DNA of 64,000 nucleotides, from the NCBI GenBank assembly GCA_902556505.1, contig CACDWM010000001.1, forward strand, positions 1 to 64,000. Direction: 5' to 3'. The notes beneath the pieces were generated by a model. The model searched no databases, was not told the origin of the DNA, and worked only from the letters and a program-made list of their open reading frames with translations. The position numbers and the translations under genes are program-made. Shown one piece after another: positions 27,105-53,114 of this stretch. Source of the DNA: an uncultured Pelagibacteraceae bacterium (GTDB taxonomy: Bacteria; Pseudomonadota; Alphaproteobacteria; Pelagibacterales; Pelagibacteraceae). Within the stretch, counting starts at the first letter, position 1. Each line of letters opens with the position of its first letter.

Positions 27105-28463
27105 TTAGCCTTTTACAACTTCTCTTGTATTTGCGTTGAAAGACTCTTTGAATGGAATATCCACAACTACAGCGTCTACAGGTGTTCCTGGAGTGTCCGA
27201 GTATTTTTCTGGAAGATGAACTTTAAACTTAGTTCCAACTTTACCTTTTGGAAATCCATTAGGGTTTAAAGTTCCATCAAATGGAACGTAACCCATAGCA
27301 ATATTAGTTTTCTTTTCCGGATGCCACCATGGAGAAGTAATAAATCCGACTGGATCTCCACCACTTTCTGGTGATACTAACCAAAAATCTGGCGCATAAT
27401 CGTCAATAGGCTTACCACCCAATTCCATTCCAACTAATTGAAGTTTGTATGGTTTTTGACCAGCTTTTATGTCTGCTTTCATTTTCTCTAAAGCAGCTTT
27501 ACCAACATAGTCAGCTTTTTTATTCCATTCACCTTTACCAGATAATGAAACTTGATAACCTAAATTACATTGAAACGGATTATGTTGTTGATCCATGTCC
27601 TGTCCCCAAGAAAGAATACCAGCTTGTATTCTTCTGTGGTGTGCAGGTGCAATAACCATTAACCTATGTTTTTTTCCTGCATCCAATACTGCATTCCACA
27701 TATCTTCAGCATATAAAGTTGCATTTCTTAAATATATCTCATAACCAGCTTCTCCTGAAAAACCAGATTGAGAAATTACACAACTTCTTCCACCAATTGT
27801 TGCTTCTGCTAATCCATAGAAAGGCATATTATCAAAATCAACTTGGTCTCCACAAAGATCTTTCATTAAAGCTTTTGATTTAGGACCTTGAATTTGTACT
27901 GGACATGCATCAATTTCTTCAATTGTACAGTTAAATCTTCCATCCGCATTTACACCTTGTAAATACATTCCAATATCAGAGTCTGACAATGAAAACCAAA
28001 ATTCATCTTTTGAAATTCTTAAAAGAATAGGATCATTTAAAACTCCTCCATAAGCATTACATAAGATTACATATCTTGCTCTCATAGGAGAAATTTTTGT
28101 TGCATCTCTTGTTATAACGTAATCAGTAAATTTTTCTGCATCCGGACCTTTAACTCTTATTTGTCTTTCAACAGCTACATTCCACATTGTTACATGGTTT
28201 ACGATTGCATCATATTCAACCATTGCTCCACCATCTTCAGGTTTTACATAACCTCTTGGATGATAAATTCGATTGTATACAGTTGCTCTCCAACAACCTG
28301 CCTGCATTGATAAATGCCAATAAGGTGACTTTCTTACCCTTGTCGAAATTAATAATTCAACTTTAGTTGGCCCACTCTGTCTTAAATTGTATGGTACTTC
28401 TCTATCTGATTGATCAACAGAAGTAACATGTTGTACTTTAGTATAGTCAAATTCTTTAGACAT
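27105..28463 (-). CDS. dmdA: DMSP demethylase (DmdA), GcvT-fold
   Basis: QSGPTKVELLISTRVRKSPYWHLSMQAGCWRATVYNRIYHPRGY, MWNVAVERQIRVKGPDAEKF, SFSGEAGYEIYLR; matches remembered Pelagibacter DmdA architecture. Confidence 0.88.
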   Translation of the reverse strand: MSKEFDYTKVQHVTSVDQSDREVPYNLRQSGPTKVELLISTRVRKSPYWHLSMQAGCWRATVYNRIYHPRGYVKPEDGGAMVEYDAIVNHVTMWNVAVERQIRVKGPDAEKFTDYVITRDATKISPMRARYVILCNAYGGVLNDPILLRISKDEFWFSLSDSDIGMYLQGVNADGRFNCTIEEIDACPVQIQGPKSKALMKDLCGDQVDFDNMPFYGLAEATIGGRSCVISQSGFSGEAGYEIYLRNATLYAEDMWNAVLDAGKKHRLMVIAPAHHRRIQAGILSWGQDMDQQHNPFQCNLGYQVSLSGKGEWNKKADYVGKAALEKMKADIKAGQKPYKLQLVGMELGGKPIDDYAPDFWLVSPESGGDPVGFITSPWWHPEKKTNIAMGYVPFDGTLNPNGFPKGKVGTKFKVHLPEKYSDTPGTPVDAVVVDIPFKESFNANTREVVKG

Positions 28464-29184
28464 AACTATTCTCCCTCAACCACTTGTTAGTTTCCTTCAA
28501 GCCGCCGAATGTATAAATGTGGAAGTTATCAGTATGCGATTTAACTTTCCCAATTAAATCATTAGGGTCTTTAGGTTTCAATAAATCCAATGCCTTACTA
28601 AAATTAGATTTAAGAAAGTTTAAGGAATTTTTTGCCCCTACAATATTAGCAAATTTAATTAAGCTAGATATTTTTAAAGGCCCAGTGATTCCCACATGCA
28701 CTGGTACACTTTGCTTAGAAATAAAATCTATAATAGGCTGAGGATCTAGTAACCACTGTGTTACAATATAATCAGCATAAGGCTTTTTATCGATCATAGC
28801 TTTTTCTAAATCTGAGTCGGATATATCAGGACTCCCCTCGGGATGTCCAGCAATTCCTATTTTCATTTTTTCAAAATAACCTGTCTCTAAAAGTTGAAAT
28901 GAACTATCAAATTTACCTGCTGGTTCTCTTCCACCTCCAATAATCAAGGCTTGCTTTACGCCTCCATCTTTGCATCTAGAAACATAATCTTTAAGTTCTT
29001 TTTCATCATGCATTGATCTGGCAGGAAAATGGGGTACTGGGTTAAATCCTTTTTTTACAAGTTCTATTGCTTTATCAGCAGTTTCTCTATAATCACCCCC
29101 AGGTAGCATTGTTATATAAATGTCAGACAACGCAGGAACTGTATCAACCTCTGTTTTAGGACCTATTTCCAATGAAAAATTCAT
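28456..29184 (-). CDS. Methylenetetrahydrofolate reductase-like protein (short MetF)
   Basis: PHFPARSMHDEKELKDYV, ALIIGGGREPAGKF, IGIAGHPEGSPDI, YIVTQWLLDPQPIIDFI. Confidence 0.85.
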   Translation of the reverse strand: MNFSLEIGPKTEVDTVPALSDIYITMLPGGDYRETADKAIELVKKGFNPVPHFPARSMHDEKELKDYVSRCKDGGVKQALIIGGGREPAGKFDSSFQLLETGYFEKMKIGIAGHPEGSPDISDSDLEKAMIDKKPYADYIVTQWLLDPQPIIDFISKQSVPVHVGITGPLKISSLIKFANIVGAKNSLNFLKSNFSKALDLLKPKDPNDLIGKVKSHTDNFHIYTFGGLKETNKWLRENSYV

Positions 29185-29241: not shown

Positions 29242-30129
29242 TTACTTTTTTAACTGACCTCTGTGCTTTTGAATTCTTTGTCCGTACTGTTGAGTTACTC
29301 TATCAAAGATAATTGCTAGAGCTACGATTGCTAAACCATTCATCATTCCAAGAGCTAAATATTGGTTGGAAATAGCCTGTAAAATAGGGACTCCCAAGCC
29401 TTTTACACCTATCATTGAAGCTATCACTACCATTGCTAAAGCCATCATAATCGTTTGGTTAATCCCAGCAAAAATAGTTGGTAGAGAAAGTGGGATTTGA
29501 ACAGATCTTAATTTTTGCATCGGTGTTGCCCCAAAAGCTTCGCTAGCTTCTAAAGTTTCCTTATCAACTTCTCTAATCCCTAGATTTGTTAATCTTACAA
29601 TTGGAGGTAATGCATAAATACATACTGCAAGTAGCCCTGGAACTTTACCAATACCAAGAAGCATAATGATTGGAATTAAATATACAAAGCTTGGAATAGT
29701 TTGCATCATATCTAAAACAGGTAAAATTGCTTTTTCTGTTCTACGTGATTTTGACATTAATACTCCAATAGGTATTCCAACAACAATACAGACAAGTGTA
29801 GAAACGGAAATGATTGCAACTGTAGCCATACAATTTTTCCACATTCCAAAGTAGCCAATTACCAAGAAACAAACCACTGTACCAATTACAAGCTTAATAC
29901 TTCTTGATCCAATCCAAGCTAATAAAGCAAATACACCAATTACTAAAGGCCATGGACTGTTTACTAATAATTTTTCTAACCAAATTAAAAAATATAGTAG
30001 TGGATCAAAAAAACTTTCTATTCCATCTCCATAAGCTCTTGAAAAATCTTTAAAACTTAAATCAATACCCTTTTTCAGCTCCCTAAGAGCCGTTCTATCC
30101 ATTACAGGAATTTTATTAAAGAAGTCCAT
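29242..30129 (-). CDS. Betaine/choline-type ABC transporter permease (ProW-like)
   Basis: IPSFVYLIPIIMLLGIGKVPGLLAVCIYALPPIVRLT, EASEAFGATPMQKLRSVQIPLSLPTIFAGINQTIMMAL. Confidence 0.9.
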   Translation of the reverse strand: MDFFNKIPVMDRTALRELKKGIDLSFKDFSRAYGDGIESFFDPLLYFLIWLEKLLVNSPWPLVIGVFALLAWIGSRSIKLVIGTVVCFLVIGYFGMWKNCMATVAIISVSTLVCIVVGIPIGVLMSKSRRTEKAILPVLDMMQTIPSFVYLIPIIMLLGIGKVPGLLAVCIYALPPIVRLTNLGIREVDKETLEASEAFGATPMQKLRSVQIPLSLPTIFAGINQTIMMALAMVVIASMIGVKGLGVPILQAISNQYLALGMMNGLAIVALAIIFDRVTQQYGQRIQKHRGQLKK

Positions 30130-30178: not shown

Positions 30179-31189
30179 TTAAAGTGCTTTTTTGATTTTT
30201 TTTGCAGCATCACTTGAAACCCATTTACTCCAAACACTTTCTTGTGTTTTTAGGAATTCAATTGCAGCATCAGCACCTTCTGCTTGGTTTTCACCCATCC
30301 AAACTAACATACCGTTCATAACTGGACCTGGGTATGTTCTCTTCTTAAAGTATTCCATACCAGCACTTCCAGCTGTATTTTTGAAATTGTCAGTTACGAT
30401 TGTGTAAACTTCAGATTTTGTCCATGAAGTTGCTTTAGGGTCTCCACATTCTTGTTCTGGTAAAACTATACATTTATCCCAGTTATCTTTTCCACCCCAA
30501 GCTCCCATGTCCACAGCTCTCATATCATATTTACCAATGATAGCCGTTGGTGACCAATAGTAACCAAACCAGTTTTCACCTCGCTCAGCAGCTTTAGCAA
30601 TTGAACCATCTAATCCTGCAGCAGAACCTGTTTCAACAATAGCCCAACCTTTTGCTTCCATGTCAAAAGCTTTGTAAAGATTTCTATTACTTAGCTCACA
30701 GTTCCAACCTGGAGGACAAATATGAAAACCACCTTTTGATGGATCTTCTGGATGAGGAAACAGATCTGGTCTTGCTAAAATTGCTTCAGCAGTTGTTAGC
30801 TCTGGATGTTTTTTAAGTGTGTGAGGTAATACCCACCATCCTTCACCCAAACCAGTAATCGGCGCTTTATTAAGTGAGTGCATTCTTCCTTCATCAATTG
30901 CTTTATTCAAAGCGATGATAGCAGCGTTTGCCCAAAATTCTGGAGCAACATCTGGCTCACCTTTTTCTTGCATAGATGCAAAAGTTGGCTGAGTTGCACC
31001 AGGCACAAGCTCAACATTACATCCATAACCTTCTTCTAATATAATCTTATCAACTTCAGCCATAAAGTTTGCTGAAGCCCAGTTCATATTAGCAATCGTT
31101 ATATTTCCACAAGCTGCATTTGCAACACTTCCAAAAGAAGTAAGACCAAACACAACAGCTAGTGAAAGAAGTATTCTTTTAATCTTCAT
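30179..31189 (-). CDS. Betaine/DMSP-type ABC transporter substrate-binding protein (OpuAC-like)
   Basis: Signal peptide MKIKRILLSLAVVFGLTSFGSVANA; OpuAC-like 'ITIANMNWASANFMAEVDKIILEEGYGCNVELVPG'; SD GGGAGA before ATG 31189. Confidence 0.88.
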   Translation of the reverse strand: MKIKRILLSLAVVFGLTSFGSVANAACGNITIANMNWASANFMAEVDKIILEEGYGCNVELVPGATQPTFASMQEKGEPDVAPEFWANAAIIALNKAIDEGRMHSLNKAPITGLGEGWWVLPHTLKKHPELTTAEAILARPDLFPHPEDPSKGGFHICPPGWNCELSNRNLYKAFDMEAKGWAIVETGSAAGLDGSIAKAAERGENWFGYYWSPTAIIGKYDMRAVDMGAWGGKDNWDKCIVLPEQECGDPKATSWTKSEVYTIVTDNFKNTAGSAGMEYFKKRTYPGPVMNGMLVWMGENQAEGADAAIEFLKTQESVWSKWVSSDAAKKIKKAL

Positions 31190-31418
31190 AATATCTCCCA
31201 ACATTTGATTCATTTAAAAGATAAATTGAACATATCGAGGCCAATAATGCAAATTTAATTCAACTACTGGTTGCAGTAAAATTGTCTTTAACTGAACAAA
31301 ATTTTTGTTTAAAGTTTTAATATGATTTTTTCTGCAAATTTTTTTTTCAAAGAATTTGTTTATATTTTAAATTGTAAAACTGTTTTTCAACAAATCATAA
31401 TTAGAGAAAGATAATTTT

Positions 31419-31461: not shown

Positions 31462-32649
31462 ATGAATTTAAATAAAAAATTATCAGACATCTTAGATCCC
31501 AATAAAATAGAAGTTGTTAAAAATCCTATAGAGAAAGCTCATGGATTACCTAACGAATGTTATTTGAACAATGATTATTTAGAGTTTGAAAAAGAAAAAA
31601 TATTTAAAAATAATTGGACTATGATTGGGGTTGCAAGCTCTGTACCAAATCCAGGCGATGCAAAACCTTTTAATCTTTTAGGAATACCAATACTAATAGT
31701 TAGAAACAAAGAGAATGAAGTAAAAGTTTTTCATAATGTTTGTAGTCATAGAGGTTTCAAATTAGTTGATCAGGAATGTAAATTAAAAAATGTAATAAGA
31801 TGCCCTTATCATTCTTGGTCCTATGATTTTAATGGAAAATTAACTGTTACTCCACATATAGGAGGACTAGGAAAACATGAGGTTGAAGGGTTCGATAAAA
31901 ACAAGAGTAACTTAAAAGAAATTAAATCAAATATTTGGATGGATTTAATTTTTATTAATATTAATTCTAATGCAAAACCATTTGAAGATTTTATTAAACC
32001 TCTAGAGGATAGATGGTCTAAGTTTATTTCTAAAAAAGATCAAAAATTAATAAGACATTCGACTGATAACGGATATTTTAATATGACAGTAAATAGTAAT
32101 TGGAAATTTGCAATTGAGAATTATTGTGAAAGTTATCATTTGCCGTGGATACATCCAGAACTAAATAAAGTTTCAAATATTTCAGATCACTATCATATCG
32201 AAGATGAGAATTTAAATTTTTCAGGACAAGGAAGTAATAAATATTCACAACAGTTTGATGGAAACATTAAATTTAAATGCTTTCCTAACTGGCCTACTGA
32301 ACTTTATGAAAAATCTGAATATGTATCATTATATCCAAACGTAATGTTAGGAATACATATTGATCATTTCTATGCATTTTGGTTAGAGCCAATTTCTAAC
32401 AATCAAACTAAAGAACATTTTGAATTATATTATGTTGGAGACGAAAGTGCCTCTAGTGATGAGTTTAAAGACATAAGAGAAAAAAATTTTGCATTTTGGC
32501 AAGAAGTCATGAATGAAGATGTAACTGCAATAGAAGGAATGCAAAACGGGCGAAATTCTCCAGCTTACAATGGTGGGAATTTTTCACCTGTAATGGATAC
32601 TCCTACTTTGATGTTTCATAAGTGGGTTGCAACCAATTTAACTAAATGA
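31462..32649 (+). CDS. Rieske non-heme iron oxygenase alpha subunit (betaine/choline-type demethylase candidate)
   Basis: Rieske CSHRGFKL...CPYHSWSYDFNGKL, mononuclear Fe motif ENYCESYHLPWIHPEL. Confidence 0.85.
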   Translation: MNLNKKLSDILDPNKIEVVKNPIEKAHGLPNECYLNNDYLEFEKEKIFKNNWTMIGVASSVPNPGDAKPFNLLGIPILIVRNKENEVKVFHNVCSHRGFKLVDQECKLKNVIRCPYHSWSYDFNGKLTVTPHIGGLGKHEVEGFDKNKSNLKEIKSNIWMDLIFININSNAKPFEDFIKPLEDRWSKFISKKDQKLIRHSTDNGYFNMTVNSNWKFAIENYCESYHLPWIHPELNKVSNISDHYHIEDENLNFSGQGSNKYSQQFDGNIKFKCFPNWPTELYEKSEYVSLYPNVMLGIHIDHFYAFWLEPISNNQTKEHFELYYVGDESASSDEFKDIREKNFAFWQEVMNEDVTAIEGMQNGRNSPAYNGGNFSPVMDTPTLMFHKWVATNLTK

Positions 32650-32660
32650 GAGGGTAAATT

Positions 32661-33701
32661 ATGAAAAAAGATCTTATTACAAGATTAAATGAAGGTCCAA
32701 TAATGTGTGCAGAAGGCTATCTTTTTGCAATGGAAAGAAGGGGTTATCTTTCAGCAGGTCCATTTGTTCCAGAAGTTGTTATGGAACATCCTGAGGTAGT
32801 AACTCAGTTACATCGAGAATTTATTAGAGCGGGATCTGATGTTGTTCAAGCATTTACTTATTACGGTCATAGAGAAAAGCTCAGAATAATTGGTAAAGAA
32901 CATTTGTTAGAACCAATGCAAAAAGGTGCTCTTAAAATTGCAAAAGATGCTGCTGCTGAGTTTAAAGATTTAGATCTTATGGTTTGCGGAGACGTGGCTA
33001 ATACAAATGTATTTGATCCAGGGGATCCTAATACTCACAAACAATGTCAACAAATGTATGAAGAACAAGTAGCTTGGGCAAAAGAGGCTGGTGTTGATTT
33101 TGTAATAGCAGAAACAATAAGTTGGACTGATGAAATGAAAATTGCATTAAAAGCAATTAAGGATGCAGGACTTATTGCAGTTTGTAATTTTGCAATTCCT
33201 AGAGGGGATAAAACTAGAGAAGGACATAGTACTGAGGATGCATGTAAGATGATGGAGGATCTGGGCGCTGATGTTGTTGGATTGAATTGTTACAGAGGAC
33301 CTGAAATGACAATGAAATTATTAAAAAAGGTTAGAGAAAAAGTTTCATGTCATGTTGCAGGACTTCCAGTACCTTACAGAACAACAGAGGAAGAACCTGG
33401 TTTCTTAAATATCACTGATCATGGTTGCGACTGTATTCCAGGTGGAAATGCATTCCCAGTAGCTTTAGATAATTTGTTTTGTAATAGATTTGAAATGGCA
33501 GAATTTGCAAAAGATTGTGTTCAGAATAAAATAAATTTTATTGGTATATGTTGTGGTGCCGAAGCTCATCATGTCAGAGAAATGTCTGTTGCAATTGGTA
33601 AAAAACCAATTTCAATGAAATATATGCCAGATATGAGCAAACATTTTCACCATGGAACAGATAAATCTCTTAAAAAAGTAAATAAGGAGATCAAATACTA
33701 A
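32661..33701 (+). CDS. bhmT: Betaine-homocysteine methyltransferase-like (homocysteine S-methyltransferase family)
   Basis: GSDVVQAFTYYGHREKL, VGLNCYRGPEMTM, IGICCGAEAHHVREM (zinc Cys motif). Confidence 0.88.
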   Translation: MKKDLITRLNEGPIMCAEGYLFAMERRGYLSAGPFVPEVVMEHPEVVTQLHREFIRAGSDVVQAFTYYGHREKLRIIGKEHLLEPMQKGALKIAKDAAAEFKDLDLMVCGDVANTNVFDPGDPNTHKQCQQMYEEQVAWAKEAGVDFVIAETISWTDEMKIALKAIKDAGLIAVCNFAIPRGDKTREGHSTEDACKMMEDLGADVVGLNCYRGPEMTMKLLKKVREKVSCHVAGLPVPYRTTEEEPGFLNITDHGCDCIPGGNAFPVALDNLFCNRFEMAEFAKDCVQNKINFIGICCGAEAHHVREMSVAIGKKPISMKYMPDMSKHFHHGTDKSLKKVNKEIKY

Positions 33702-33709
33702 TAATAAAT

Positions 33710-34792
33710 ATGAAGAGAAAAACTTTTTTTGACTCTAGAGACAAATATTTATCATTTGTAAACTCAACTAATGAAAAATCAAAAATTGCTTTTTATTTAT
33801 TTAAAAAAATAGAAAAAATCAGTACTCGGTCACCAATTTTTAACGTATTAGACGCGGGTACTGGTGAGGGAACAATTATATCTACTTTTTTGTCAGGTCT
33901 GCATAAATATTTGCCAAATAAACCTATATTTGTTGTAGGTAAAGAAATAAGTATCGATGATATTAATGTGCTTCTAAGTTTTTTAGGGGATAGATTTGCT
34001 GAACATAAAACTTTAATTTTTAATATTACTAATTGTAGTTATAAAGATTTAAATAACTCTACATCTGACAAAGTAAAATTTGAAAAATTAGAATTAGTTG
34101 GAAAAAAAGGTATTGATTTTACTAAGATCTTAATGAGTTTAAGTCCTTATGTTAGAAAAAATTGGAAATTATCTTTTAATAACAAAAATGGTTCAATTAA
34201 ACCCAAGTCAAAAATTTTTTTGACTATTTACAGAAAAGATCAAAAAAAAAAATTAAAAGACTTTATACCTAGAAATATAAGTGAAATTCCAAAAAAATAT
34301 GATTTTATTATTGCATCTCAATGTTTTAAGCTTCGGTCTCCTTTAATTCAGACTGTAAATAATGTTATTAAACCTCTTTTATCTTTGTTAAATTTTAAGG
34401 GAAAAATGTTCCTTATATACTCATCAGGAAAGGATTTTACAGGATCATTTCTCAAATACTACTATCCAAGGAATGGTTTTTATAAAAATTCAGAACCAAA
34501 AAAATTAATATCTCAAATAAAAAAAAATATAGAAAAAGATAAATTTAAAATTAAACTAGAAAAACTAAAATATACCTTCAATAATTTATCTATCAATTTG
34601 AAGGAATTCTCACTAAATAATATTTTTTCTGTCTGGAATGCAATAAACTATGTGGGGCAAGTTTCTGAAATAGAGCAAAAAAAAGTTTCATTTACTAAAA
34701 AAAATATAAATATTCTTCAAAAGAGATTGTCCAAATTAAAAAATATTTATTTTGAAGACAATATTTTAAATTTTGAAAAAGAAAGGTTATAA
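33710..34792 (+). CDS. Divergent SAM-methyltransferase-like protein, function unknown
   Basis: Motif I-like FNVLDAGTGEGTI; rest divergent and Lys-rich. Confidence 0.55.
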   Translation: MKRKTFFDSRDKYLSFVNSTNEKSKIAFYLFKKIEKISTRSPIFNVLDAGTGEGTIISTFLSGLHKYLPNKPIFVVGKEISIDDINVLLSFLGDRFAEHKTLIFNITNCSYKDLNNSTSDKVKFEKLELVGKKGIDFTKILMSLSPYVRKNWKLSFNNKNGSIKPKSKIFLTIYRKDQKKKLKDFIPRNISEIPKKYDFIIASQCFKLRSPLIQTVNNVIKPLLSLLNFKGKMFLIYSSGKDFTGSFLKYYYPRNGFYKNSEPKKLISQIKKNIEKDKFKIKLEKLKYTFNNLSINLKEFSLNNIFSVWNAINYVGQVSEIEQKKVSFTKKNINILQKRLSKLKNIYFEDNILNFEKERL

Positions 34793-34800
34793 ATAAATTT

Positions 34801-37206
34801 ATGGAGAAAAATGCTAAAGTTGTAATCATAGGTGGTGGTGTGGTGGGTTGTTCTATTCTTTACCATTTATCTAAATTTGGGTTAAAGGATTGCATTTTAC
34901 TTGAGAGAAACGAACTTACCTCAGGATCGTCTTGGCACGCAGCGGGAAATGTTCACGTGATTTCATCTGACCCTAATATCTCTAGGATGATGGCTTATAC
35001 AATAGGCTTATATAAAGAAATAGAAAAAGAGTCAGGTCATTCTGTAGGCTTTAAACCTAGTGGAGGTTTTTATTTAGCTTCAAATGAAGTGTGGGCTGAT
35101 TATTTAAAGAGAGAAAGATCAAAAGCAAGATACATGGGACTTGACCAAGAATTTATTTCTTTAGAGGAAGTTAAAAAGAAAAATCCTCTAATTGATCCAT
35201 CTAGATATTTGTTGGCCTTATGGGATCCTATCGATGGTGAAGTTGATCCTTCAGGAGTTACTTACGCTTTTGCAAAAGCTGCAAAAGTTCATGGTGGAAA
35301 ATATTACACTCACACTGTTGTAAAAGATACAAAACAAAAAGAAGATGGAACTTGGGATGTGTTTACCGAAAAAGGAAATATTAATGCTGAAATAGTAATT
35401 AACGCTGGTGGTTTATGGGCAAGAGAAGTTGGGCAATTAGCTGGATTAAATCTTCCTGTACAACCAATGGAGCACCATTATCTAATCACTGAATCCATTC
35501 CTGAAATTGAAGCAATGGGTGATCAAAGATTGCCAATAGGAACTGATTTTGAGGGAAATATTTACTTTAGACAAGAAGGAAAAGGGATGTTGCTTGGAAC
35601 ATATGAACCTAAATCAACACCTTGGAAAGTAGAAGGGACACCAATGAATTTTGGTCATGAATTATTGGAGCCAAAGTTAGATAATATTGAAGATAGACTA
35701 GCAATCGGTTTTGAAAGAATGCCAGCGCTAGAACGTGCAGGTATTAAGAATATAGTTAATGGACCTTTTACTTTTGGTCCAGATGGAAGTCCTCTGATTG
35801 GTCCAGTACCAGGAATGAAAAATTATTGGGTTGCAGTTGGTGTAATGGCTGGTTTTTGTCAAGGAGGAGGTGTTGGAAAATGTATAGCTGAATGGATTAT
35901 TGATGGTGAACCTTCTATTGATGTTTGGGCAATGGATGTTGCTCGTTTTGGAGATTATGCATCCCCTCAATATGGAACAATAAAATCTTCAGAAAACTAT
36001 GAACGAAGATTTATTATGACATTTCCTAATGAAACTTTACCAAAAGGAAGAAAACAAAAAACTACTGCGCTGTATGATCGTTTTGTAAATCAAGGTGCTG
36101 TTATGGGAGATAGTTTTGGATTAGAAAATGTTTTGTGGTTTGCAAACAATAAAGAAGATGCCCATGAAGAGCCTACTATCAAAAGATCAAGATCTCATGA
36201 TTATGTATCAAAGGAAGTTATTAATGTAAGAGAAAATGTTGGTTTAATTGAAGTTGCAAATTTTTCAAAACATGAATTCAAAGGTCCTGATGCTAGAAAA
36301 TTTTTAGATCACATAATGGCTGGAAGGCTCCCAAAACCTGGAAGAATATCTTTGTCACCAATGTTATCATACAGAGGAAAATTATGTGGCGATCTAACTG
36401 TGGCATGTTTAGATGAAAATGAATTTATGATATTTGGCTCTGGCGCTGCTCAAGAAATGCATAAACGTTGGTTTGAAAGTCACTTAGATAGATTTAATTT
36501 AAATTATAAAAATAGATCTGATGAGTTCCATGGATTATCAATTGCAGGACCTAATTCAAGAAAGGTTTTAGAAAAAATAGTAAGAGATGATGTTTCAAAT
36601 GAAAAATTTAAATTTAGAGATTCTAGAAGGATGTTTGTTGGAGGAGTTCCAGCAATAATAAATAGAATTTCATTTACTGGCGAACTCGGATATGAAATTT
36701 ATGTAGCGCCTCACTATCAATTAAAACTTTACGAAGAATTAATGGAAGCTGGAAAAGAATTTAATATCAAACCCTTTGGCGGAAGAGCATTAATGTCAAT
36801 GAGGTTAGAGAAAAATTGGGGAGCTTGGACTTTAGATTATAGACCAGATTTTACTGCTAAAGAAACAGGATTAGATGTTTTTATTAATTGGGATAAAGAG
36901 TTTATTGGTAAAGAAAGTGCGCAAAAGGAAAATTCTTCAAACAAACTTATACCTTTAATTGTAGAAACCAATGATATTGATGTAACAAATAACGAAGCTG
37001 TTATGAATGGAGATCAAAGTATAGGTTACGTTACTTCAGGTGGTTTTGCACATTTTGTAAACAAGAGTGTTGCATTTACTTTTGTTGATCAGGATAAAAT
37101 TAAATCTGAAAATAAAGTTCAAGTAGAAATAAATGGAGATTTATTTAATTGCTCAATTATTAAAGAACCACTTTATGATCCAAGTGGTAAAAAAATGAGA
37201 AGCTAA
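34801..37206 (+). CDS. DMGDH/sarcosine dehydrogenase-like FAD oxidoreductase with C-terminal GcvT domain
   Basis: VVIIGGGVVGCSILYHLSKFG, ELTSGSSWHAAGNVH, GELGYEIYV GcvT motif. Confidence 0.88.
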   Translation: MEKNAKVVIIGGGVVGCSILYHLSKFGLKDCILLERNELTSGSSWHAAGNVHVISSDPNISRMMAYTIGLYKEIEKESGHSVGFKPSGGFYLASNEVWADYLKRERSKARYMGLDQEFISLEEVKKKNPLIDPSRYLLALWDPIDGEVDPSGVTYAFAKAAKVHGGKYYTHTVVKDTKQKEDGTWDVFTEKGNINAEIVINAGGLWAREVGQLAGLNLPVQPMEHHYLITESIPEIEAMGDQRLPIGTDFEGNIYFRQEGKGMLLGTYEPKSTPWKVEGTPMNFGHELLEPKLDNIEDRLAIGFERMPALERAGIKNIVNGPFTFGPDGSPLIGPVPGMKNYWVAVGVMAGFCQGGGVGKCIAEWIIDGEPSIDVWAMDVARFGDYASPQYGTIKSSENYERRFIMTFPNETLPKGRKQKTTALYDRFVNQGAVMGDSFGLENVLWFANNKEDAHEEPTIKRSRSHDYVSKEVINVRENVGLIEVANFSKHEFKGPDARKFLDHIMAGRLPKPGRISLSPMLSYRGKLCGDLTVACLDENEFMIFGSGAAQEMHKRWFESHLDRFNLNYKNRSDEFHGLSIAGPNSRKVLEKIVRDDVSNEKFKFRDSRRMFVGGVPAIINRISFTGELGYEIYVAPHYQLKLYEELMEAGKEFNIKPFGGRALMSMRLEKNWGAWTLDYRPDFTAKETGLDVFINWDKEFIGKESAQKENSSNKLIPLIVETNDIDVTNNEAVMNGDQSIGYVTSGGFAHFVNKSVAFTFVDQDKIKSENKVQVEINGDLFNCSIIKEPLYDPSGKKMRS

Positions 37207-37832
37207 TGGCACAAAAAGACGTAGGAAACAAAATTCCAATTTATAAACTTAAAACCACCGATGAAGTCATGAAGTACTACGACGAGTGGGGAGATAAAGA
37301 TAAGTATAATAAAGATATGGTTGATTGGAACTATACAGGCCCAAAGGAAACCGTAGCAACTTTCAATAAGCACGAAAGTAATAAAGATACGCTAATCTTT
37401 GATGCAGGCTGTGGAACAGGTCTAGTTGGAGTTGAGTTAAAAAAATATGGTTTTAAAAATTTTCATGGAGCTGATTTATCTCAAACTTTATTAGATACAG
37501 TTCCAAAAGATCTTTATCAAAAATTAGTTAAAGTTGATTTAAACCAACCAATAGAAGCTGAGGATAATTTTTATGGTGGAGTGATGTGTGTTGGTACGTT
37601 TACATTTGGCCATGTAAAACCAAATGCATTAGATGAGTTTATAAGAATAACAAAACCAGGTGGTTTAATTTGCTTCACGATTAATGAAGGAATTCATGAA
37701 GAGTATGGTTTTGATAAAAAAATTGATATACTCAAAGATAGCAATGAGTGGGAAGAAGTAGAATTTTTTAAATCTGACTATATTGCGAGCAAAGATGTTA
37801 ACGCATGGTTAGGGTTGTATAGGGTATTATGA
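37206..37832 (+). CDS. Class I SAM-dependent methyltransferase
   Basis: LIFDAGCGTGLVGVELKKYGFKNFHGADLS, RITKPGGLICFTIN. Confidence 0.85.
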   Translation: MAQKDVGNKIPIYKLKTTDEVMKYYDEWGDKDKYNKDMVDWNYTGPKETVATFNKHESNKDTLIFDAGCGTGLVGVELKKYGFKNFHGADLSQTLLDTVPKDLYQKLVKVDLNQPIEAEDNFYGGVMCVGTFTFGHVKPNALDEFIRITKPGGLICFTINEGIHEEYGFDKKIDILKDSNEWEEVEFFKSDYIASKDVNAWLGLYRVL

Positions 37833-39064
37833 GGTTTAGTAGAAAAATAGCTCCTGAGATAAAACCAAGACAAAATTTTATTACCAAAAAAAGATTAAGA
37901 GAAGACGAGATTGATTTTGATAAATTAAGATCATATCGTTTAGATAGGGTCAGAAAAGAATTGGTAAAAAACAATTTAGAGGCTTGTATTCTCTTTGATC
38001 CAGTGAATGTTCGTTATGCTTTAGATACAGTCAACATGAGCGTCTATAATATGCATAATTTAACAAGATATTGTTTTGTACCGGTCAATGGACCAACAAT
38101 TCTTTATGAGTATTTTAATTGTGAAATATTATCAAAGCATTTAAATCTAATTGACGAAATAAGACCTGCAATCACATGGGATTATTTTAGCAATGGAGAT
38201 CAAGCAAATTTACAATTATCAAAATGGATAAATGAAGTTAAAGATTTATCAAAAAATTATTTTAAAACAAAAAAAATTGCAATCGATGTTTTAAATGGTC
38301 CTGCGGTTACAGCTTTAAATAAAGAAGGTATTGAAGTTGTAGATGCAAAATTGATTTTAGAACAAGCAAGGGTAATAAAATCACCTGATGAATTAATTTG
38401 TATGAAAGCAGCAATAGAAGTTGCAGAAAAAGGTGTATCAAAAATGAGATCAGATCTTAAACCAGGAATGACTGAAGATGAATTGTGGTCAATTTTACAT
38501 AAAACGAATATTGAAAATGGAGGTGAGTGGATTGAGTGTAGGATTTTATCTTCTGGTGAAAGAACAAATCCATGGATGCAAGAGAGTAGTAATAAAGTTA
38601 TGCAACAAGGAGAAATTGTTGCTTTTGATACAGATATGGTTGGTCCATATGGATATTGCGCCGACATATCAAGGGCCTTTGTAGTTGGACATAAATTTAA
38701 TGATCAGCAAAAAAAACTATATTCAATGGCTAGAAATCAAATTGATCATAATTTTAGATTAATAAAACCGGGAATGAGTTTTAAAGAATTTATAAAAAAA
38801 TCTTGGGTTTTGCCTGATGAATATTATGGAAATAGGTATTCATGTATGGTTCATGGAATTGGTTTATGTGATGAGTGGCCTCAAATAAGATATCCAACTG
38901 ATGGTGGAGAAGAAGGTGGAACTTTTGAGAAGAACATGACAATCACACTTGAGAGTTATATTGGTAAAGTTGGTGGTAAAGAAGGTGTAAAACTTGAACA
39001 ACAGTATCTTGTTGGTGATAATGGACTTGAATTAATGTCCCATCATCCGTTAGAAGATATCTAA
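37829..39064 (+). CDS. dddP: DddP-like M24-family protein (candidate DMSP lyase)
   Basis: FDPVNVRYALDTVNMSVYNMHN, GGEWIECRILSSGERTNPWMQE, VAFDTDMVGPYGYCADISRAF, YSCMVHGIGLCDEWPQIRYP closely match remembered Roseovarius DddP segments. Confidence 0.75.
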   Translation: MRFSRKIAPEIKPRQNFITKKRLREDEIDFDKLRSYRLDRVRKELVKNNLEACILFDPVNVRYALDTVNMSVYNMHNLTRYCFVPVNGPTILYEYFNCEILSKHLNLIDEIRPAITWDYFSNGDQANLQLSKWINEVKDLSKNYFKTKKIAIDVLNGPAVTALNKEGIEVVDAKLILEQARVIKSPDELICMKAAIEVAEKGVSKMRSDLKPGMTEDELWSILHKTNIENGGEWIECRILSSGERTNPWMQESSNKVMQQGEIVAFDTDMVGPYGYCADISRAFVVGHKFNDQQKKLYSMARNQIDHNFRLIKPGMSFKEFIKKSWVLPDEYYGNRYSCMVHGIGLCDEWPQIRYPTDGGEEGGTFEKNMTITLESYIGKVGGKEGVKLEQQYLVGDNGLELMSHHPLEDI

Positions 39065-39474
39065 TGAAAATTATTTTAGTAATGGGTTTGCCTGGAGCAG
39101 GTAAAACAACTCTAGCAAATGAAATGGCTCCACTCTTGAATGCAAAAAGATTAAATGCAGACGAAGTAAGAAAAGCCGCAAACGATTGGGATTTTTCAGA
39201 AGAAGGGAGGATAAGACAAGCAAAAAGAATGGCTGAAGCAGCTTTAAAATTAAAAGCAGATGGTCATTATGTAATTGCAGATTTCATTGCACCAACTCCC
39301 GAAGCAAGAAGTTTATTTCCAGCAGACTTTAGAGTTTGGGTAGATACAATTAAGGAAGGAAGATTTGAAGACACTAATCAAATGTTTGTTAATCCTAAGA
39401 ATTTTGATTTTCACGTAACATCTCAGGATGCAAAAAATTGGGCACCAAAAATAATAGAGGAGATAAAAAAATGA
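39064..39474 (+). CDS. APS-kinase-like (CysC-like) P-loop kinase
   Basis: GLPGAGKTTLA; NADEVRKAANDWDFSEEGRIRQAKRMAEAALKLKADGHYVIADFIAP similar to the CysC pattern. Confidence 0.75.
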   Translation: MKIILVMGLPGAGKTTLANEMAPLLNAKRLNADEVRKAANDWDFSEEGRIRQAKRMAEAALKLKADGHYVIADFIAPTPEARSLFPADFRVWVDTIKEGRFEDTNQMFVNPKNFDFHVTSQDAKNWAPKIIEEIKK

Positions 39475-39845
39475 CACACCAATGGGATAACAAAAAACCA
39501 ACAGCACAAATGCTAGGAAGATGGCAACCTTTTCACGATGGACATTATACTTTGTTCAAAGAAATTATTAAAAAAACTGGACAAGTTTGTATTCAAATTA
39601 GAGATGTACAAGGTGTAGATGATAATCCTTTTGATTTTGAAACAGTAAAAAAAAACATTGAAGACAGATTAAATCCTGAGTTTGAAGGACAATTTAAAAT
39701 TATGCTAGTACCTAATATTACAAATATTTGTTATGGTAGGGGAGTTGGATATAAGATTGAGGAAATAGTTTTGGATGAAGAAACTCAAAAAATATCAGCT
39801 ACTAAGATAAGAGCTAAAATGAGAGAAGAGGGAAAGTTAAAATAA
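39471..39845 (+). CDS. Small nucleotidyltransferase (cytidylyltransferase/NadD-like fold)
   Basis: GRWQPFHDGHYTLF (HxGH-like) and ISATKIR motif; ATG at 39471 preferred over 39438. Confidence 0.78.
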   Translation: MTHQWDNKKPTAQMLGRWQPFHDGHYTLFKEIIKKTGQVCIQIRDVQGVDDNPFDFETVKKNIEDRLNPEFEGQFKIMLVPNITNICYGRGVGYKIEEIVLDEETQKISATKIRAKMREEGKLK

Positions 39846-39851
39846 AATTTA

Positions 39852-40703
39852 ATGAACGATAGACTTAAGACTATTGTAGATTTAGAAAAATATCCAATAC
39901 ACGATTTAAATTCACCAATAATTAAAAATCTAGTTAAAAAATGTAAAGAAGAACTGGATCAACATAGTTGTTCAACAATTTCAAATTTTATTTTGCCTAA
40001 ATCACTTAAGGTAATGAATTCTGAGTTAGAAAAACAATTAGACGAAGTTTATATGTCTAAAGAGAGTATAAATGCTTACTTGTATGCAAAGGATGATCCT
40101 TCATTACCAAAAGATCATCCAAAAAGAACTTTTATGAATAGATACAACGGATATTTGAATTCAGATTGTTTTCCAAAAGACTCCGAAATGAAATATCTAT
40201 ATGAAACTGAAGAACTTTTAAAATTTGTATCTGCTTGTTTAGGTGTTTCTCCTATTCACAGATGGGCAGATCCTTTAGCATGTCATGCTTATAATGTTAT
40301 GAAACCAGATGGAGTACTCCCATGGCATTTTGATAGTTGTGAATTTACACTTAGTTTAATGATACAAAAACCTGAGAGGGGTGGTGTATTTGAGTACTGT
40401 CCAAATATTAGAGAACCAGGAAATGAAAATTTCGAGGAAGTTCAAAAAGTAATAGCTGGAGATAGAACTAGAGTGAGACAATTGAAATTAGAGCCAGGAG
40501 ATTTACAAATATTTAAAGGTAGATTTACTTTGCATAGGGTAACAAAAGTTGAAGGCCAAAAATCAAGATATATGTGTATTCCAGCTTATGTTTTAGATCC
40601 ATGGAGAGTAAACACTCCAGAACATTCCAAAGCTATTTATGGTAAAGTTTTACCAATTCATATAGAAAGAAATCAGGTTAGATCCGATGGATTAACTGAT
40701 TAA
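39852..40703 (+). CDS. 2-oxoglutarate/Fe(II)-dependent oxygenase-like protein
   Basis: Facial triad candidate WHFDSCEF...LHRV with KSRY arginine. Confidence 0.75.
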   Translation: MNDRLKTIVDLEKYPIHDLNSPIIKNLVKKCKEELDQHSCSTISNFILPKSLKVMNSELEKQLDEVYMSKESINAYLYAKDDPSLPKDHPKRTFMNRYNGYLNSDCFPKDSEMKYLYETEELLKFVSACLGVSPIHRWADPLACHAYNVMKPDGVLPWHFDSCEFTLSLMIQKPERGGVFEYCPNIREPGNENFEEVQKVIAGDRTRVRQLKLEPGDLQIFKGRFTLHRVTKVEGQKSRYMCIPAYVLDPWRVNTPEHSKAIYGKVLPIHIERNQVRSDGLTD

Positions 40704-41483
40704 ATGACTAGCAACATTAAAATTAAAAAAAATAACAACGAAGTTTCATCAATTATTATTGATGAACCAAAAACTTACAACTCTTTATCATTCAAAAATC
40801 TTTCAGATTTATTAAAGGCATTAAAAAAATTAGATGCTGATAAAAAAGTTAAAGTAATAATATTAGAGGGTGCTGGTAAAGGATTTAGTGCAGGTCATAA
40901 TTTAAAAGAAGTTAGAGGTCTAAAAAAGAGAGATAAATATTTAAAATTATTTAATCTTTGTTCAAAAGTAATGCTTCAAATTGTTGAAGGTAGAAAACCT
41001 GTAATTGCTAAAGTTCATGGAGCTGCATTTGCAGCTGGCTGTCAATTGGTTGCAAGTTGTGATTTAGCATATAGTACTAAGGACGCATTATTTGCTACTC
41101 CTGGTGTCAATATTGGTTTGTTTTGTAGCACACCTATGGTTGCTGTAAGTAGAAAGATAAATCGAAAACCTATGATGAAAATGTTGCTAACTGGAGAACC
41201 TATCAATGCAAATTATGCAAAAGAAATAGGGTTGATAAATGATAATTTTTCAAAAGCCAAATTAAACAATGAAGTGTTAAAAGTAGCAAATAAAATTGCT
41301 TCTAAATCTAATTTAACAATAAAAATTGGAAAGCAAGCTTTTTACAAACAATTAGAAATGCCATTAAATAAAGCTTACGCTTATACAAGTAAAATGATGA
41401 CCCTAAATATGATGGCAATGGATGCAAAAGAAGGAATTTCTGCATTCCTCGAAAAACGAAAACCAAAATGGAAAAATAAATAA
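40704..41483 (+). CDS. Enoyl-CoA hydratase/isomerase family protein (ECHDC3-like)
   Basis: GKGFSAGHNLKEV, VHGAAFAAGCQLVASCDLAY, FATPGVNIGLFCSTPM. Confidence 0.88.
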   Translation: MTSNIKIKKNNNEVSSIIIDEPKTYNSLSFKNLSDLLKALKKLDADKKVKVIILEGAGKGFSAGHNLKEVRGLKKRDKYLKLFNLCSKVMLQIVEGRKPVIAKVHGAAFAAGCQLVASCDLAYSTKDALFATPGVNIGLFCSTPMVAVSRKINRKPMMKMLLTGEPINANYAKEIGLINDNFSKAKLNNEVLKVANKIASKSNLTIKIGKQAFYKQLEMPLNKAYAYTSKMMTLNMMAMDAKEGISAFLEKRKPKWKNK

Positions 41484-44793: not shown

Positions 44794-47226
44794 ATGAAAA
44801 CAAAAACTAAAGTTGTAGTAGTTGGTGGAGGAGTTGTAGGGGTAAGTGCCCTTTATCATTTAGCAAAAAAGGGTTGGTCTGATGTTGTTCTAGTTGAAAG
44901 AAAAGAGTTAACTTCGGGATCTACTTGGCACGCAGCAGGTTTGTTGCCTTTATTTAATATGAGTTATTCAGTTGGACAACTTCATAAATATGCAGTTAAT
45001 CTTTACAAAACATTAGAAGAAGAAACTGGAAAAAATGTTGGCTTTAGCGTTGTTTCAAATATTCGTCTAGCAAGTACAAAAGATAGAATGGATGAATACC
45101 ATCAATACGCAGGTGTTGCTCGAACTATCGGAGTAGATGTTAAATTTTTGAAACCAGAACAAGTAAAAGAAATTTGGCCATTATGTCATACTGATGATTT
45201 AGTTGGCGCAATACAACACCCTGAAGATGGATATATTCAACCAGCAGATTTAACACAAGCATTAGCAACAGGTGCAAGAAATAGAGGAGCAGAAATTTAT
45301 AGAAACACAACCGTCCTATCAATGAGGCAAACAAAAGAAGGATGGGTTGTAGAAACAGATAAGGGATCAATAGAGTGCGAACATGTTATTTCTTGTTCTG
45401 GAAATTTTGCGAGACAAACAGGTGAAATGGTAGGACTAGATATTCCGGTAATACCTGTTGAACATCAATACATTGTTACAGAACCTCATCCTGCAATTCA
45501 AAAAAGAAAAAAAGATGGATTACCAGAGATGGGAGTCTTAAGAGATAGTGATAGCAGATGGTATATGAGAGAAGAAGCTGGAGGATTAATTTTAGGCCCT
45601 TACGAAGATGGTGCACCAGCTTGTTATGTAGAGGGGCCATCAAAAAATTCTGAATATGAATTATTTCAAGAAGACTTAGACAGATTAGCTCCACACATAG
45701 AAGGAGCAATTCATAGAGTACCTGCGTTTGGAGAAGTTGGAGTAAAGAAAGTTTATAATGGAGCAATCTGTTATACTCCTGATGGAAATCCAATTGTTGG
45801 ACCAGCTTGGGGACTTAAGAATTTTTGGATTAATGAAGGACATAGTTTTGGAATAACAGCAGCAGGTGGTGCAGGTTGGCAATTAGCAGAATGGATCGTT
45901 GATGGTGAACCAACAATTGACATGTTAGGAGTTGAACCAAGACGTTACGGTAACTATGCAACTAAATCTTATTTAAAAGCTAAAAATGAAGAAGCATACA
46001 GCCATGTCTTCATAGTTCACTACCCAGATGAAGAAAGGCCAGCTGCAAGACCATTAAGAACAGCTCCTTGTTATGAACGAATGAAAAATTTGGGAGCAGT
46101 TTTTGGTCAGAAATTTGGATGGGAAAGACCTAATTTTTTTGCAACAGATGGAATGGAGCAAAAAGATGATTGGTCATTTAGAAGATCAAAATGGTTTGAT
46201 GCGATTAAGAAAGAATGTCAAAATGTTAAAGAAAACGTAGGTCTTTTAGATATGACTGCGTTTGCAAAATGTAGAATTAGGGGACCTAAAGCAGAGGAAT
46301 TTTTAGATTATTTAGTTGCAAATAAACTTCCAAAAAAAATTGGAAGAATAAATTTATGTCATGCTTTGAACACTAAAGGTGGAGTGCATTCAGAATTTAC
46401 AATAATGAAAGAAGCGGAAAATAGTTATTATCTAGTTTCTGCTGGAGCAAATTTAAGATTAGACCATGATTGGATACAAAAATGGATGCCAGATGATGGA
46501 TCTGTAATATTTGAAGATCTAACAAATAGTACAGGAGTTTTAGTTGTAGCTGGTCCAAAAGCCAGACAATTAATGCAAAAGGTTTCAACAGACGATTTTT
46601 CTAATGAAAATTTCAAATGGTTGACTGCTAAAAATGTTAATGTTGGATATGCTCCAGTAAATGCAATGAGAGTAAACTTTGTGGGTGAGCTTGGTTGGGA
46701 ACTGCATCATCCAATTGAATATCAAAACCATATTTTTGATAAATTAATGGAAGCAGGGAAAGATTTAGGAATTAAACCTTTTGGAATTAGGGCAATGAAT
46801 AGTTTAAGAGTAGAAAAATCTTATAAACTAGTTGGTACAGAATTATCAATTGAATACTCACCATACGAGTCCGGTCTTGATAGATTTGTTCACCCAAATA
46901 AAGGAAACTTTATTGGATTAGAGGCACTTAATAAATGGAGAGAAAAAGGTTTTGATAATAAATTAGTTACTTTAGAGGTTCATAACACTAAAGATGCTGA
47001 TGTGCTTGGAAATAACCCAATTTTTAAAGACGGAAAAGTTGTTGGAAGAGCAACTGGAGGCGAATTTGGATTTAGATTAGATAAATCAATAGCTCTTGCA
47101 ATGGTTAAGCCAGATTGTTCAAATGTAGGCGACAAATTACAAGTTGATATATTAGGTGAAATGTACGACGCTACTGTCCTAAATGAGAGTCCATATGATT
47201 CAGAAAATAATTTATTAAGAGCTTAA
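44794..47226 (+). CDS. DMGDH-like FAD oxidoreductase with GcvT domain (paralogue of 34801-37206)
   Basis: [56 protein letters not shown]. Confidence 0.9.
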
Positions 47227-52112: not shown

Positions 52113-53114
52113 GTGTCTGATCAATTCAAAGCAATAGTCCTTAACCAAGAAGGTGAAAATTTTTCTCGTGAAGTAAAATCTTTAGATAAAAGTTTCTTAA
52201 AACATGGAGATGTGACTGTAAAAGTACATTATTCAGATTTAAACTTTAAAGATGGAATGATTCTAAAGAATGGAGGAAGATTAGTTAAAGAATATCCTCA
52301 TATTCCAGGAATTGATTTTTCTGGATCTGTTATCGAAAGCGATAATCCAAAATTTAAAGAAGGTGACGAAGTAATTCTTACTGGATTTAGAGTGGGAGAA
52401 GTTTTTTTTGGAGGGTTTTCGCAAATTGCAAAAGTAAGTGGAGATTTTTTAGTTAAAAAACCTGATAGTTTAACTAGCAAACAAGCGATGATTTTAGGAA
52501 CAGCAGGTTTAACTTCTTTAATGAGCGCATTTGCTATTCAAGCAAGAGAAAGTATTTTATTAGGAGAAAAAGTTAACGATGTTTTAGTAACTGGTGCAAC
52601 AGGTGGGGTTGGTAGTTTAGCAGTTATGGCTTTAACTAAATTAGGCTATAACGTTACTGCAGTTACAGGAAAAGATTCTAAGTCAGACTATTTAAAATCG
52701 TTAGGTGCTAAAAACATTATAAATAGGGCTGAATTTGACAAAGATCCTAGACCAATAGATAAGGGTTTATGGGACGGAGCAGTTGATACTGTTGGTGGAA
52801 AAATTTTAGCTAACGCAATAGCACAAACAAAGTCAAATGGAATTATTGCAGTTTGTGGAAACGCGAACAGCAATGAGCTAAATACAAATTTACTCCCTTT
52901 TATGTTAAGAGGTATTAAAGTTTGGGGAATGGACTCTGCTAATTGTAGTATAAAAAGAAGAGAATTTATTTGGGGCGAGGCATCAAAATTAATTGATTTT
53001 GATTTAATTGAAAAATCAGTTTTAACTGTTAGTTTGGAGGAATTAGTTGAAACTTATCCAAAAATTTTAAAAGGTGAAATTGCTGGAAGAGTATTAGTTG
53101 ATTTAAATAAATAA
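52113..53114 (+). CDS. acuI: AcuI/YhdH-type acrylyl-CoA reductase (MDR family)
   Basis: YSDLNFKDGMIL, PHIPGIDFSGSV, VTGATGGVGSLAVMALTKLGYNVTAVTGK; GTG start. Confidence 0.85.
   Translation: MSDQFKAIVLNQEGENFSREVKSLDKSFLKHGDVTVKVHYSDLNFKDGMILKNGGRLVKEYPHIPGIDFSGSVIESDNPKFKEGDEVILTGFRVGEVFFGGFSQIAKVSGDFLVKKPDSLTSKQAMILGTAGLTSLMSAFAIQARESILLGEKVNDVLVTGATGGVGSLAVMALTKLGYNVTAVTGKDSKSDYLKSLGAKNIINRAEFDKDPRPIDKGLWDGAVDTVGGKILANAIAQTKSNGIIAVCGNANSNELNTNLLPFMLRGIKVWGMDSANCSIKRREFIWGEASKLIDFDLIEKSVLTVSLEELVETYPKILKGEIAGRVLVDLNK

Follow-up and report, generated by a model that had tools for sequence, protein, structure and literature searches.

A 64,000-nucleotide stretch of SAR11 DNA (Pelagibacteraceae), hereafter the window, encodes an M24 protein (P0001) that belongs to the DddP-like M24 superfamily by its predicted fold and by its closest sequence and structure relatives. 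We give about an even chance to the reading that this enzyme of a SAR11 clade is paired with a CntA/GbcA-like Rieske oxygenase and breaks down an osmolyte, N-methylated or of the onium type, for entry into SAR11 betaine catabolism; the osmolyte is probably one other than DMSP. The genome comprises 1.05 Mb in 43 contigs and is 73.6% complete. The M24 ORF overlaps the SAM methyltransferase ORF upstream by 4 nt and shares 1 nt with the ORF downstream, and it is therefore embedded in a compact operon (Table 1). This bears out the sequence-only reading of the same DNA, which had put the gene directly after a SAM methyltransferase in a methyl-transfer operon.

Table 1. Features of the window around the M24 gene (positions in the window).
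Feature	Position	Strand	Basis or remark
DddP-like M24 enzyme, SAR11 clade, 411 aa	37829-39064	+	sequence, profile, residues, predicted fold
Rieske oxygenase alpha subunit, nearest CntA (PDB 6y8j) and GbcA	31462-32649	+	sequence/profile matches
BHMT-like homocysteine S-methyltransferase	32661-33701	+	PF02574
360-aa protein, in a subset of SAR11 loci	33710-34792	+	no Pfam/NCBIfam match
Dimethylglycine-dehydrogenase-like (DMGDH-like) FAD + GcvT protein	34801-37206	+	
Class I SAM methyltransferase	37206-37832	+	4-nt overlap with M24; adjoins M24 in family f31 too (L179)
Small P-loop / APS-kinase-like protein	39064-39474	+	1-nt overlap with M24
Small nucleotidyltransferase-like protein	39438-39845	+	
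PhyH/HalD-like Fe(II)/2-oxoglutarate oxygenase	39852-40703	+	after Rieske-M24 in minimal loci G062, G002
Enoyl-CoA hydratase family protein	40704-41483	+	over cut-off for PRK08139, generic
GcvT-family methyltransferase, earlier called dmdA	27105-28463	-	below DmdA cut-off
MTHFR-like protein, paired with GcvT paralog	28456-29184	-	
ProW/ChoW-like betaine ABC permease and binding protein, two ORFs	29242-30129, 30179-31213	-	

The best sequence matches of the M24 protein in the PDB are RlDddP (9.8e-85) and RdDddP (3.8e-81), and the next M24 enzyme follows at 3.6e-18. The NCBIfam DddP model, NF043017, matches at E=1.2e-104 and 350.6 bits, below its equivalog cut-off of 600 bits. An AlphaFold2 model (mean pLDDT 93.6) compared with the solved structures gives TM 0.89 and rmsd 1.7 A to RlDddP and RdDddP, TM ~0.71 to prolidases and TM ~0.7 to creatinase or DoeA. 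The likeness to DddP goes far beyond chance. The PDB ranking, NF043017 and the predicted fold agree with the earlier view that the protein is DddP-like and not a generic Xaa-Pro peptidase. A Pfam Peptidase_M24 match (3.5e-33) does speak for a generic Xaa-Pro dipeptidase or aminopeptidase, but the peptidase matches are at least 60 orders of magnitude weaker than those to DddP, Asp348 occupies one of the peptidase histidine positions, and RlDddP itself is without Val-Pro activity (PMC5395565). The peptidase reading is disfavoured, and we consider it very improbable.

DddP is reported to have six metal ligands together with Tyr366 and Asp377 (PMC4108388, PMC5395565). All six ligands are present in the M24 protein as D267, D269, D279, H342, E375, and E390 (P0001 numbering), corresponding to DddP D295, D297, D307, H371, E406, and E421, and the equivalents of Y366 and D377 are kept as Y337 and D348. 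The DddP-like segments quoted in the sequence-only reading were likewise all found in the 411-aa translation. Of 73 non-canonical alphaproteobacterial paralogs, however, nearly all carry the ligand set and the Tyr/Asp pair too, which are therefore not evidence for DMSP lyase function. The quoted motifs had been offered as distinguishing DddP; nearly all non-canonical members have them, and we rejected them as proof because they are common to the whole superfamily. Mapping of the residues also shows two differences in the pocket. Canonical DddPs carry W95 (23/23) and F or Y at 278 (23/23), whereas the SAR11 clade has Y or F in place of W95 and M in place of F278 in 34/34 sequences. Consistent with its clade, the M24 protein departs from the canonical pocket (Trp95, Phe/Tyr278), with Tyr73 at the Trp95 position and Met250 at that of Phe278. 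The literature searched did not give the number of the DMSP-binding Trp, and therefore we infer a pocket role for W95. The substrate-binding histidines of M24 peptidases were not found in the M24 protein either, as the RlDddP positions Asp377 and Phe278 are taken by Asp348 and Met250. DddP has been reported with Phe replacing one M24 histidine (PMC5395565), and by residue spacing and this report, position 278 would be one of the peptidase histidines.

To place the protein, NF043017 was searched over 385 alphaproteobacterial genomes. Matches occur in 79 of these, with up to four per genome, and only 12 are over the cut-off. Alignments and trees were built from 134 proteins and then 72, in sets without the named fungal and Oceanimonas DddPs. 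RlDddP and RdDddP both lie in the canonical DddP clade (support 100/99). The SAR11 M24 proteins form their own clade (100/99) outside it, sister to the proteins of f31, a second family of small genomes (100/100). A tree constrained to unite the canonical, SAR11, and f31 proteins is rejected (delta lnL 41, AU p=0.002). Clustered DddP-like M24 paralogs were also seen within single alphaproteobacterial genomes (L155, L160, L167, and L175, the last with four), some of them near a DMGDH-like gene. The sequence-only reading had proposed a DMSP lyase and had tied that identity to placement in the DddP clade, where the SAR11 clade does not fall; by that yardstick the identity fails. The M24 gene encodes a DddP relative on a separate branch and should not be scored as an established source of DMS.

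A functional lyase for DMSP (and DMSOP), that is a divergent DddP providing cleavage in addition to demethylation by DmdA, would agree with the six ligands, the kept Tyr366 and Asp377 equivalents, and the closeness of the predicted fold to RlDddP. Fungal FgDddP is active although it is 32% identical to RdDddP (PMC4108388). Active sites of the DddP family tolerate low identity, and lyase activity could therefore persist in the M24 protein. Against this stand the score of 350 bits, the exclusion from the canonical clade, the changes at W95 and F278, and a setting among genes for quaternary-amine catabolism, where the Rieske partner is constant.

The other DMSP genes of the genome bear on the same question. 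A dmdA gene had been noted 9 kb from the M24 gene, but that GcvT-family protein reaches 223.6 bits where the DmdA model (NF009133) has its cut-off at 410. It is a different paralog, and we rejected a nearby dmdA as context. Among nine GcvT-type matches in the genome, the true DmdA, at 581 bits, lies outside the window on contig C5 (36074-37177). A second DmdA-like protein, also outside the window, was observed on contig C4 (59646-60725; 393.5 bits, just under the cut-off). The genome therefore has demethylation capacity, though away from the M24 gene. The window does contain a homologue of the AcuI/YhdH-family acryloyl-CoA reductase (52113-53114), over the TIGR02823 cut-off, which together with the true DmdA would favor a lyase. 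Such a homologue is over the cut-off in 118/147 Pelagibacteraceae genomes, however, and because it is near-universal in the family it is uninformative; we rejected it as a sign of acrylate handling. DddQ was found in 2/147 of these genomes, neither an M24 carrier. A search for DddK by way of Cupin_2 in this genome (74% complete) returned three weak cupins only, the short one being without DddK-like motifs by eye. With all this considered, we find it quite unlikely that the M24 protein is a DMSP lyase.

The M24 gene is patchy, occurring in 23 of the 147 Pelagibacteraceae genomes surveyed. A CntA/GbcA-like Rieske gene is present in 23/23 M24 carriers and in 16/124 non-carriers (Fisher p=8.5e-17, shared ancestry ignored; both genes counted at E below 1e-60). 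The two genes lie within 10 bp of each other in 18 of the 23 carriers and in the same locus in the other five. Across 80 SAR11 loci, gene order is strongly conserved in two arrangements. In one, opuAC/opuAB are divergent from a run of rieske, BHMT, DMGDH-like, SAM methyltransferase, M24, kinase-like, NTase-like, PhyH, and ECH; in the other, the order is BHMT, DMGDH, SAMMT, rieske, M24. Minimal loci (G062, G002) have rieske, M24, and PhyH alone, beside the GcvT/MTHFR-like pair. SAR11 use of glycine betaine, presumably via BHMT, is discussed in PMC12478193. A literature search for a Rieske and M24 osmolyte pathway and for homarine operons gave nothing matching.

Several neighbors drew separate observations. 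The GcvT-family methyltransferase gene overlaps the MTHFR-like gene (together 27105-29184) and is divergent from the Rieske gene, and this trio recurs in most of the Rieske-containing SAR11 loci viewed, which suggests a tetrahydrofolate-dependent demethylation module. The P-loop kinase-like and nucleotidyltransferase-like proteins (39064-39845) both score far below known-family cut-offs; the pair is kept after M24 in most named SAR11 loci and is missing from the minimal loci. The 360-aa protein has a Rossmann-like N-terminus by eye, and its homologue lies directly upstream of M24 in f31 (L174, L181). A second DMGDH-like FAD + GcvT protein is encoded in the region at 44794-47226, followed by genes resembling ETF beta, ETF alpha, and ETF-QO by eye.

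More distant relatives of the M24 gene are also found among methyl-transfer and demethylation genes. The f31 M24 gene has a SAM methyltransferase and two BHMT-like genes as its neighbors, and beyond them are an FAD oxidoreductase, a DapA-like gene, and an aldehyde dehydrogenase, with MetK and SAH hydrolase on the other side. Sixty non-canonical loci were examined, three from f31 and the rest from other families of alphaproteobacteria; a DMGDH-like gene lies within ~7 kb in 12 of them, compared with ~1.1 expected (1.09, from 5.6 DMGDH-like copies per ~4.1-Mb genome; p=2e-9, Poisson, shared ancestry ignored). DMGDH-like enzymes would use sarcosine or dimethylglycine, and their enrichment near the superfamily and presence in this operon favor an ordinary hydrolase of C-N bonds, of the creatinase or DoeA kind, in which attack by water on an amidine or amide precursor frees sarcosine, dimethylglycine, or betaine. 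Hydrolysis of C-N bonds is common among enzymes of the M24 fold (PMC5395565). However, the M24 protein has the sixth metal ligand of DddP (D297) and an Asp where M24 peptidases carry a substrate-binding His (PMC5395565), and the creatinase and DoeA structures are distant from it. We therefore regard ordinary hydrolysis of this kind as unlikely.

For the reading we prefer, an osmolyte-cleaving M24 enzyme paired with the Rieske oxygenase, the analysis shows the ligands, the predicted fold, the position of the clade, the changes in the pocket, and the linkage to Rieske, and we infer the type of substrate, the step order, and the chemistry. The enzyme would be a homodimer (by homology) with a six-ligand di-metal center and with the peptidase histidine lost. 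The di-metal center would grip a small substrate, onium or N-methylated, by its carboxylate, as in DddP, while Tyr337 and aromatic residues would hold the charged head group. With Asp348 as the putative base, a C-N (or C-S) bond would be broken via beta-elimination or hydrolysis. Demethylation of the methylated product may then fall to the Rieske oxygenase, BHMT, and dimethylglycine-dehydrogenase-like enzymes. The betaine island also contains genes that fit no single pathway, however, so operon company may reflect shared regulation and not a shared pathway. A wider proposal is that Rieske and DddP-like M24 constitute an undescribed two-enzyme route in SAR11 for the breakdown of a marine osmolyte, N-methylated or onium, and that the superfamily consists mainly of betaine-type C-N lyases, with DMSP-cleaving DddP as one derived branch. 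We offer it tentatively, as possible but doubtful.

Few bacterial groups in the ocean are as abundant as SAR11, and metagenome counts of dddP are used to estimate DMS production. Published dddP surveys give thresholds of 1e-30 (PMC8520302) and 1e-70 (PMC5395565). In PMC8520302 the DddP carriers reported after checks of residues and trees include Pelagibacterales, and most matches group with ratified enzymes in these checks. The M24 protein, at 1e-104 with an NCBIfam model that differs from the survey models, should probably clear both thresholds as well as the residue check, and SAR11 dddP counts therefore deserve a clade-level filter. Naming the M24 gene dddP could overstate DMS potential, as it falls outside the clade of structurally characterised lyases. 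Should a betaine-type solute be the substrate of the Rieske-M24 pair, the two genes would mark a route for carbon and nitrogen in SAR11 that has yet to be characterised.

Among known systems, DddP (RlDddP 4rzy/4s00/4s01, RdDddP 4b28; NF043017) is like the M24 protein in its M24 fold, six ligands, Tyr366, and Asp377. The M24 protein differs in being 35% identical, below the cut-off, and in a separate clade, with W95 changed to Y and F278 to M, and in a gene context of Rieske, BHMT, and DMGDH. Creatinase (1chm, 7yto) and the ectoine hydrolase DoeA/EutD (6twk) have the M24 fold in common with it and are non-peptidase C-N hydrolases of small nitrogenous solutes, but they are only 16-18% identical to it at the TM given above, and their active-site residues differ. 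Prolidase and aminopeptidase P have the pita-bread C-terminal domain and the core metal ligands in common with the M24 protein, which is without their substrate histidine, carries one more Asp as a ligand, and resembles them far less than it does DddP (best 3.6e-18). The Rieske partner is closest to the carnitine monooxygenase CntA, with which it aligns over residues 26-372, and is below the GbcA cut-off (127 vs 670 bits).
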